Source of the DNA: Geotoga petraea
GTDB taxonomy: Bacteria > Thermotogota > Thermotogae > Petrotogales > Petrotogaceae
Length of the DNA: 64,000 bases
NCBI RefSeq assembly: GCF_900102615.1
Contig: NZ_FMYV01000002.1
Span: 62,001 to 126,000, forward strand
Reading direction: 5' to 3'
A program made the position numbers and the translations under genes. The notes under the pieces were generated by a model. That model was not told where the DNA came from, searched no databases, and saw only the letters and a list, made by a program, of their open reading frames with translations. Positions 7,454 through 10,951 of the stretch are shown here, piece after piece. How positions within the stretch are numbered: the first letter of the stretch is position 1; each line of letters starts with the position of its first letter.

Positions 7454-10400
7454 TTACATTAATCCAAATTCAAATCCTTGATCACTATATTTTACATTTT
7501 TATCTGGTATATAGTTAATAAAAAAAGTAAAAGAAAATCCAGAAACTTTAAAATTGGGAAGTAGCGTTAAAGCTGGGTCATTCGTATTATTAGGGCTATA
7601 TGCTTTTAGATTTAATGTCCAACAAACTATTTTTTTCTGTATTTCAAAAACATCAAAAGAAAAATCTTTGGTTATGCCATTATACTTTATCCCAAACTTT
7701 CCAAATTCTGACTCATCAGAATTTTCAATTTGTATAGAACTTTTAGTTTCTTTTTCTTCAATATAATGTTCAAGGTCTAATTCAACAAAAAACTGAGAAT
7801 TTTGTTGAATAAATTTATTCTCTGTTTTAATATGATTGTATTGGTCATTTATTAAAAGTGATCCATTTAGTTTATTATTGTTAAAATAAAAATTGTAGTT
7901 TGCCTCTATTTTAGGTATTTTTTCTTTCCACAAACTTTTTGAAAGAAAATAATCATAATCGATTTGAATCTTATTTCGTGAAAATTTAAAGGTTTCAGTA
8001 TTTTCTAAGTATTCTATTTTGGGTTCTTCTTGATGTTTGATTTCAAATTTAGTTTTATGATCATAAGAGTAAATAGAATTAGATATCTCAATGCTTGTTT
8101 TTTCTAGTTTTATATTTTCATCATCTTCAACGTCAAATTTTGTATCTGTTTTTATTCTATGTCTTGTGTTTAAAATACTTAGCTCTGTTTTTGTATTTAT
8201 ATTTAGACTATCTAAATCAAATCTATCCAAAAAAGATAAATGTAGATCTTCATTTTTATATAAAAAATTTCTTTCTAACAAAATTGAATTTTTAAGATTA
8301 TTATTCAATATATTTAAATCATATCCAATAAAGTCGCCATAACTAATCTGGTCAGTGGCAGAAGGAGTTAAATTGTTTTCAAAAACTTTTCTAAAGTTCA
8401 AATAAGTTCCGGCCTTAAAAATATTATATTTAAAATCAATTTGGGGTTTTACATTTAAATCAAAATATGTTTTTCCAAAAGAATATTCGCTTTGTTCAAT
8501 AAGATCTAATTTATGATTAAAATTACTTGTGAAATTTATATAATTATCTAAATTAAAATCATTTATATTATAAGAAAAAGCATTATATTTATAATTAAAC
8601 TTATTATTGCTTTCTAATCTATCTTGAGTGACTTTTGTTGCTACTTTAGTCCTGTCATAATTAAAGTTACCAGATAATGAACTGTTATTTGAATAAAGAT
8701 TGTATTTTCCTTCAAGTTCTGTATTTGATATTCTATTTTGCCAAATTTCAACTATATCGTTTTTTGCATTTGAATTTTCAGCAGATTTTGCATTAAAATC
8801 TAAATCACTGATTGATATTATTGACCTTTTATATTTTTTTTGAAATGCGTCAGTTGAAAGACTATAAAACTCAACAAAGTCAATTGTCCTTTCTTTCCAA
8901 ATTATTTGAGATTTTATATCTTCTATTGTACCGTAGTTTGTTTTTAATTCTGGAATATTCAAACTTATTTGTTGTTTATTAGAGCTGGGAGAATGTTGGG
9001 CTTTGAGGTTGCCATCAAAATCAAAATCATATTGTAATCCTAAAGAAGTTAAAGTTTCGTTGTATAAATTTGAAAAAATAGAGAACTCACCATTTAAAAA
9101 AGGAAATCCATAATTAAAAGACGAACTTTGATCAAAAGAATTTTTTTCTAAGTCATTTATGATTTCATAATTAAATTTTAATTTTGAATTATTTTCAAAA
9201 GTATAATTTATTCCCACATTTACGTTGATCTTATTATCTTCGTATTTTAGCACTAATTTTAGTGGTTCATCTTCATCTTCAGCAAGACTCTGAAAATAAA
9301 AAGGGAAGTAAAACACTGGCATTCCAAAAAAATCTAATACAACATCTCTTGCTATTAAAAATTTTTTTGGAAAAACAGTAACTTTCCTGGCACTCATATA
9401 ATAGGTAATATTGTCTTCACAAGTTGTCAATTTGATTCTGTTTGAAAATATTATATCGTCGTTGATTGGTTTTTCCGTCTCTTCAGACCAAATTCTAACA
9501 GACACTTTTTCATTGTCTTTATACTTTTGAATAGTATAAGAATTTAAAAATAAAGCTGTATCGGTTTCATAATTTATAGTCATTTGAGATGCTTCAATAG
9601 TGTTTTTTTCATATTGATATTTTACTCCATTGGTTAATTCTGCAAATTTTACTGTATTGTCTTCTCTAAGTACAATTTTCCCGCTTCCAGCATCTACTAT
9701 GGTGTCTTGATAGTTTATCGTCAAAGTCGAGTCTATTGTAATTGTGTTATTAAAAATATTGAAGTCATTAGCTTTTATATTAACTTTTTCAGAATAACCA
9801 GTGCTCCCGATTGAAAAAATAAAAACAACAATAGCGATGGAGAAGAATTTTTTTAATGGCTCTGTTACTTTATAAGATATTTTAGTATCTAACAATATAA
9901 ATAGCAATATACCTATGGAACCAAAGAGTATATTTGGTAGCCAGGAAGCTAAAACAGGGTTAACAATTTCTTCCTTACCCAGAGCAGTTATCCAAGCTCC
10001 ACTGCCTTGATATAAAACCACTAAAACAAATGTTGTTATAACACTCCATGATTTACTTTTAATATTTAAAAAAAGTGATAATGATATTCCTAAAATAGCA
10101 ATTACTAAAGGTGCCAAAGAATTAGCAAACTTGTTGTGGTAAGAAACTATTAATCCAGAAACATTTGAGCCTAATTTAGAAAAGGTGATTATTTTTTCTT
10201 TTAATTCTCTCGTTGTCATTTCATTAGCCCCTTTTGAAAAGTTAATAAACTCTTCAACATCTGCGGCAATGTTTAGATCAAGAGAATCAAAAGAAACATC
10301 TAACTCTAAAAATCCATTATCTTTCATTTTATAAATTCTACCATTTTCCATTTTCCATCCATCTGGATATTTTTGCGCTCTTTCGGCGTGAAAAACTTTG

Positions 10401-10951
10401 ACATTATCATAGGCTACTTCATATAAAAGGAGTTCATATAAAATACCAGTGTTTCTGTCCAATTCTTTAACAAACAAGTATCTATCATCACCAAGATCGA
10501 CAAATTCATTGTCTTCTATAGTTGCCTCTGGTTTTTCATAAATGTATTTAGCCATGGCTTGTTTTGCTTTATAGTTTGAATTTGGCACCAGATTATCGTA
10601 AAGATAAAAAGTAAAAAGTGACAAAAAAATTGATATCAAAAGAAATGGTATAACTATTTTTCTTGTTGGAACACCTAAAGTTTGCATTGCTATTAACTCA
10701 TTATCATTAGTAAATCTTGATACTACCCAAAAGATAGAAAATAAAACACCTACAGGTATCCCCATTGAAATAAAGTATGGTAAGTTATACCATAACAATA
10801 GTAGTAATTTGTCAAAACCAACATGATTTTTTACTATAATTTCTGATAATTCGTATAAAAGCTGAACACTAACAAAAACAATAAAACCAAATAATCCCAT
10901 AAAAAATGGAGCTGAAAATTCTTTGGTAATGTATTTGATTAAACGTTTCAT
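7454..10951 (-). CDS. LptF/LptG-type permease fused to OstA/LptD-like protein
   Basis: Residues 1 to about 360 are a YjgP/YjgQ (LptF/LptG) permease: three membrane helices, a periplasmic jellyroll-like domain, and three more helices. LptF and LptG extract lipopolysaccharide for the Lpt bridge in Proteobacteria. Around residues 368-390 a Lys-Lys start, a hydrophobic run and STGYS look like a signal peptide embedded in the chain. After it come repeated beta-rich segments (KANDFNIFNNTITIDST, TINYQDTIVDAGSGKIVL) typical of the OstA/LptA fold, then a long Asn/Lys/Tyr-rich region of alternating strands resembling an LptD-type barrel to residue 1165. The ATG at 10951 has GAGGAAG upstream and overlaps the PhoU-like stop as ATGA, so it is preferred over an upstream 16-residue extension. 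The substrate is unknown. Confidence 0.85.
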   Translation of the reverse strand: MKRLIKYITKEFSAPFFMGLFGFIVFVSVQLLYELSEIIVKNHVGFDKLLLLLWYNLPYFISMGIPVGVLFSIFWVVSRFTNDNELIAMQTLGVPTRKIVIPFLLISIFLSLFTFYLYDNLVPNSNYKAKQAMAKYIYEKPEATIEDNEFVDLGDDRYLFVKELDRNTGILYELLLYEVAYDNVKVFHAERAQKYPDGWKMENGRIYKMKDNGFLELDVSFDSLDLNIAADVEEFINFSKGANEMTTRELKEKIITFSKLGSNVSGLIVSYHNKFANSLAPLVIAILGISLSLFLNIKSKSWSVITTFVLVVLYQGSGAWITALGKEEIVNPVLASWLPNILFGSIGILLFILLDTKISYKVTEPLKKFFSIAIVVFIFSIGSTGYSEKVNIKANDFNIFNNTITIDSTLTINYQDTIVDAGSGKIVLREDNTVKFAELTNGVKYQYEKNTIEASQMTINYETDTALFLNSYTIQKYKDNEKVSVRIWSEETEKPINDDIIFSNRIKLTTCEDNITYYMSARKVTVFPKKFLIARDVVLDFFGMPVFYFPFYFQSLAEDEDEPLKLVLKYEDNKINVNVGINYTFENNSKLKFNYEIINDLEKNSFDQSSSFNYGFPFLNGEFSIFSNLYNETLTSLGLQYDFDFDGNLKAQHSPSSNKQQISLNIPELKTNYGTIEDIKSQIIWKERTIDFVEFYSLSTDAFQKKYKRSIISISDLDFNAKSAENSNAKNDIVEIWQNRISNTELEGKYNLYSNNSSLSGNFNYDRTKVATKVTQDRLESNNKFNYKYNAFSYNINDFNLDNYINFTSNFNHKLDLIEQSEYSFGKTYFDLNVKPQIDFKYNIFKAGTYLNFRKVFENNLTPSATDQISYGDFIGYDLNILNNNLKNSILLERNFLYKNEDLHLSFLDRFDLDSLNINTKTELSILNTRHRIKTDTKFDVEDDENIKLEKTSIEISNSIYSYDHKTKFEIKHQEEPKIEYLENTETFKFSRNKIQIDYDYFLSKSLWKEKIPKIEANYNFYFNNNKLNGSLLINDQYNHIKTENKFIQQNSQFFVELDLEHYIEEKETKSSIQIENSDESEFGKFGIKYNGITKDFSFDVFEIQKKIVCWTLNLKAYSPNNTNDPALTLLPNFKVSGFSFTFFINYIPDKNVKYSDQGFEFGLM

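Follow-up and report, generated by a model that had tools for sequence, protein, structure and literature searches.

In silico analysis of the window, the 64,000-nucleotide stretch of Geotoga petraea DNA studied here, revealed a single open reading frame on the minus strand that encodes an LptF/LptG permease and, behind it, a homologue of LptD. The frame comprises 1165 codons without a stop between the ATG at 10951 and the stop at 7454, and its start ATG overlaps the 3' end of an upstream PhoU-domain gene. The two halves are joined by a segment resembling a signal peptide (Table 1). We consider it likely that the product is a polyprotein: the permease would remain an inner-membrane protein, cleavage at the internal signal peptide would release LptD, and LptD, once assembled in the toga, would deliver a glycolipid other than LPS. 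The in-frame union of a permease with an OstA/LptD-like protein had already been noticed in a first-pass annotation made from the sequence alone, and it was borne out by the profile searches described below.

Table 1. Features of the fused gene (window positions; residues count from the start ATG).
Feature	Position	Strand	Basis
Whole gene, 1165 aa: LptF/G permease and LptD joined via a signal-peptide-like segment	7454..10951	-	Single open reading frame; fused frame recurs in Thermotogota
LptF/LptG permease, residues 6-351	9899..10936	-	PF03739 over model positions 1-351 of 353 (E = 1.2e-77)
Segment resembling an internal signal peptide, residues 367-387 (KKFFSIAIVVFIFSIGSTGYS); putative cut site before E388	9791..9853	-	Aligned junctions in both phyla and a naturally split relative; cleavage inferred
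N-terminal part of LptD (OstA domain plus the stretch holding TTC and PVFYFPFY), approximately residues 388-560	9272..9790	-	Profile matches to LptD/LptA structures; hhalign; PF03968 at the corresponding position in many relatives
Cys511 (TTC), invariant, aligned to E. coli LptD Cys173	9419..9421	-	hhalign and tail alignment
LptD barrel-like part, approximately residues 561-1165	7457..9271	-	AlphaFold2 all-beta model; Foldseek; C-terminal residue
Cys1110, 55 residues from the end; shared by 31 of the 38 tails that extend this far	7622..7624	-	Match to E. coli Cys724/725 by position only

The permease half contains a nearly full-length PF03739 domain, scoring 261.8 bits against a curated cut-off of 27.9. 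The NCBIfam equivalog cut-offs for LptF and LptG were not reached (142.8 of 230 and 136.7 of 240 bits, respectively), as is to be expected of an unpaired permease, and a profile search of the genome returned the fused gene as its sole PF03739 member. Judged by these scores, the permease half is a lone LptF/G-type permease, neither LptF nor LptG by name.

The tail following the signal-like segment comprises about 778 aa. As a lone query the window tail gave no sequence match in Pfam, NCBIfam or the PDB. A profile built from 29 homologous tails (the window and 28 others) matched LptD structures in the PDB (8h1r, E = 1.4e-10; 7omm, E = 5.1e-9) and retrieved LptA structures as well; individually, 14 of the 29 tails matched PF03968 (LptD_N). 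Aligned by hhalign to E. coli LptD (MG1655 record), the tail profile matched over its first 172 columns (E = 3.3e-6), and the window's PVFYFPFY was paired with the E. coli PIFYSPYL, the PxFYxPY segment. In E. coli LptD, disulfides tie the two ends of the protein together, and Cys724/725 sit 59-60 residues from its end. The window tail holds two cysteines only, Cys511 and Cys1110; these are suitably placed for a bond, and a disulfide could link the N-terminal domain to the end of the barrel.

Predicting the structure of the full chain from its sequence alone was uninformative (pLDDT 31). An AlphaFold2 model of the tail, based on an alignment of 40 related tails, was nearly all-beta (mean pLDDT 84, pTM 0.52). 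When this model was compared with the PDB using Foldseek, LptD occupied ranks 1 to 17 by E-value, aligned end to end with E of about 1e-16; the tail thus looks like LptD, in line with the first-pass annotation, but the TM-score was only about 0.3, so that the global barrel shape of the model is not to be trusted. The C-terminal residue is F or M in 38 of 40 tails, like in many outer-membrane barrels. Taken on sequence and model, with an OstA domain, the LptD motifs and cysteine and a barrel-like beta structure, the tail is a true LptD homologue. Past the OstA part, the tail model (window 7457-9790) contains about 36 strand segments, whereas E. coli LptD is known to have 26; either a larger barrel or broken strands would account for this number.

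The fused frame is widespread. PF03739 was detected in 100 of 103 Thermotogota genomes, and in 89 of these 100 the permease lies in a single open frame of at least 900 aa. Among the remaining 11 permease-bearing genomes, some frames run off the contig end or are frameshifted, and two (G053 and G005) are truly split. The same fusion was found in a second phylum, first seen in a 998 aa frame of G203 in which the permease precedes an LptD tail. There, 91 of 100 genomes encode the permease, 76 of the 91 in a frame of at least 960 aa, and all 16 frames examined run on into an LptD-like tail. Long permease frames of other phyla were also checked for an LptD tail: several proved to be LptF-LptG tandems, with the two permeases in head-to-tail order within a frame of about 770-940 aa (L145-L147, L151, L152, L155, L156), and the remainder did not have the permease-LptD order. 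These tandems are likewise fusions of Lpt permease genes; however, they join two permeases and carry no LptD tail.

Unfused neighbours occur as well. In one family of the second phylum (G337, L189), ostA-like, lptB, lptF and lptD genes are adjacent, and lptF and lptD overlap by a few bases; in a third lineage (G107, L165 2676-5980) lptF and lptD are again adjacent, overlapping by a few bases and unfused, which likely pictures the state before fusion. Such relatives lend some plausibility to the idea that the window's fusion is an artefact, with two neighbouring genes run together through faulty sequencing or assembly. However, the frame recurs in 89 Thermotogota genomes, complete single-contig chromosomes among them, and again in the second phylum. 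This recurrence rules out an assembly error, and we regard the chance of an artefact as negligible; the concern about two wrongly joined frames, raised in the first-pass annotation, was hence dispelled.

Maximum-likelihood analysis of 88 permease domains grouped the sequences from the two phyla in one clade (support 100/99) with the split copies nested inside it; the position of the G337 group was weakly supported (86/57). Because the permeases of both phyla, unfused copies included, form this one clade, the tree suggests, with outgroup sampling that is thin, a single ancient fusion followed by a small number of splits.

The two split genomes differ in arrangement. In G053 (L081) the permease ends in ...EPLKRLLG, and 4 bp further on a separate LptD of 848 aa begins, carrying its own signal peptide, MHLRYKSFSPVLFIISLFFIILSGTKVFS/A, which ends in ...KVFS/A (here and below a slash marks the putative cleavage position). 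In G005 two adjacent permeases (394 and 376 aa) accompany a separate LptD of 849 aa. At the G005 loci (L053 4986-7319 and L129 1444-3993) the fusion is undone, the permease is doubled into neighbouring genes and LptD lies elsewhere. The two permeases are sisters within their own family in the tree, which fits a pair that arose anew by duplication after the split.

Across the fused proteins, the junction has a common layout. Past the sixth helix a K/R-rich stretch is followed by an uncharged run (mean 15.7 residues) and, in most members, by a small-x-small ending, so that the resemblance to a signal peptide noted at first pass held beyond the window. In Thermotogota the endings include GYS/EK in the window and VYA/NE, GFA/AD and VQA/TE in others; the second phylum has many textbook-like sites of the AXA type (AQA/AP, AFA/QD, ALA/DE). 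Some of the junctions overall are without a good cleavage site. The start of the LptA-like protein of the same genome, ...LISYS/ELINVKAGDF, closely resembles the window's junction, ...STGYS/EKVNIKANDF. As a control, a loose small-x-small site was sought throughout the same proteins and was present in 32 of 37 junctions and in 144 of 263 other helices; being common in other helices too, the motif alone is weak evidence for cleavage. Stronger support for cutting comes from the naturally split G053, whose LptD has a signal peptide of its own with the same kind of ending. From the junction patterns together with the natural splits we infer that the internal signal peptide is cut and LptD freed.

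The first-pass annotation had instead suggested a single chain bridging the inner and outer membranes. Under that reading the junction would be a seventh transmembrane helix, one chain would sit in both membranes, and a permease homodimer would carry two LptD barrels; the fused protein would be an uncut, covalent lipid bridge inherited from the common ancestor of the two phyla and exporting a non-LPS lipid. The uncharged run (11-22 residues) has, in some members, the length that a membrane anchor requires, and the fusion has been retained through two phyla. There is also experimental support for one chain in both membranes in the case of MlaD of Veillonella parvula (PMC10665443), which likewise combines an inner-membrane portion with a C-terminal barrel in a single polypeptide for lipid trafficking, although MlaD is an MCE-domain protein rather than an Lpt component and has no mid-chain signal peptide. 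Against an uncut chain, the junction ends like a signal peptide, the G053 protein is divided precisely here and its LptD bears a separate signal peptide, further unfused lineages are nested in the clade, and the split lineages retain both halves. In addition, a separate LptA-like protein is encoded. A single OstA domain is expected to span far less than about 50 nm. Yet this is the reported distance at which OmpA1 rods keep the toga off the cytoplasmic membrane in T. maritima (PMC3387000), and the fused protein has one OstA domain to set against it. We therefore regard the uncut bridge as unlikely and prefer the polyprotein reading.

Of the separate lpt genes considered at first pass, LptB and an LptA-like protein were found elsewhere in the same genome, and separate LptD proteins occur in G053 and G005. 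The LptB (G000:C4:213216-213896) scores above the cut-off of TIGR04406, and LptB is present in 98 of 103 Thermotogota genomes. At L079 6211-7441 (contig C4), the lptB gene directly adjoins a gene for an OmpH/Skp-type chaperone. The LptA-like protein comprises 204 aa and matches LptD_N (E = 5.3e-7) and LptC (E = 2.3e-4); at L078 2838-7068 (contig C1), its gene comes after two genes for patatin-like phospholipases and one for a long coiled-coil protein resembling toga anchors. A BamA-like protein of 748 aa with two POTRA matches is encoded as well, and PF01103 (Omp85) had no match in the genome, this BamA-like protein included. In a broad survey, Thermotogae were described as lacking nearly all the outer-membrane genes studied, bamA excepted (PMC8871954).

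LpxC was found in none of the 103 Thermotogota genomes and in none of the 100 genomes of the second phylum, with the control search finding LpxC in E. coli; the first-pass remark that Thermotogota are not known to make typical LPS is consistent with this result. The machine should therefore work in an Lpt-like manner, yet would not strictly qualify as an exporter of LPS. For diderms without LPS, T. maritima among them, glycolipids have been suggested as the cargo (PMC10353723). As LpxC is missing in both phyla the usual cargo is not to be assumed, and a polyprotein could also carry something other than a lipid A-like glycolipid, such as a polysaccharide-linked lipid or a phospholipid, or its machine could serve toga assembly, for which the neighbourhood of the LptA-like gene, with its phospholipases and toga-anchor-like gene, may speak. 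However, all core parts of the Lpt machine have been retained, as have the LptD cysteine and motif; this favours transport of an amphiphile with a single head, as in spirochaetes that lack LPS (PMC10353723), and we think another cargo or a role in toga assembly rather improbable.

On the preferred polyprotein reading, the six-helix permease would end in the cytoplasm and, because a single permease is encoded, would pair with itself and be driven by LptB. The junction would then act as a signal peptide that returns the chain to the Sec pathway, with signal peptidase cutting after approximately residue 387. The freed LptD would cross to the toga, where the BamA-like protein would assemble its barrel. 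Permease, LptA-like protein and LptD could then form the usual bridge, carrying a non-LPS amphiphile, probably a glycolipid. As a consequence of the fusion, the two end parts of this bridge would be made in equal amounts from one message.

A comparable way of making two proteins is found in Bradyrhizobium, where the cytochrome b/c1 precursor encoded by fbcH is a polytopic membrane protein made together with a secreted protein and cut at an internal signal peptide. In that case, however, the products belong to a respiratory complex and the proteins are unrelated to those described here. A close counterpart is the Lpt system of E. coli (LptB2FG, LptC, LptA and LptD/E), which has a homologous permease, LptB, an OstA-fold bridge protein and an LptD whose Cys173 and PxFYxPY segment align with the window tail. 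While E. coli has two permeases, here there is one; permease and LptD are encoded on one precursor, and LpxC is missing, hence no standard lipid A cargo is expected. We file the system as a variant of Lpt, with homologous parts, similar working and a cargo that would not be LPS made via LpxC. In Borrelia burgdorferi, an Lpt machine likewise operates in an LPS-free diderm and has been proposed to carry a glycolipid; in contrast to the fused protein, it consists of six separate proteins, with LptF, LptG and LptD from separate genes (PMC10353723).

Lpt orthologues in T. maritima were reported earlier (Putker et al., 2015, as cited in PMC10353723). In the literature searched we found no description of a permease-LptD fusion; an earlier mention, for example by Putker et al. 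(2015), is possible. The fused gene points to an outer-membrane lipid-export pathway for a phylum in which little is understood about the toga; as a single gene in a cultivable organism, it makes the question of toga lipids directly testable. Being common to two phyla, the fusion might serve as a rare-event marker for deep bacterial phylogeny. In its unfused descendants the covalent link has been lost again, in one case along with a doubling of the permease.

Two further observations concern relatives. In family f2, which belongs to the same order (L046-L050), the fused protein exceeds the length seen elsewhere by about 300 aa (open frame of 1434-1474 aa), and the surplus lies in the barrel part. 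G005 additionally encodes a secreted-looking protein of 603 aa that unites several OstA-like repeats in a single chain (L077 4294-6105), perhaps a longer bridge protein.
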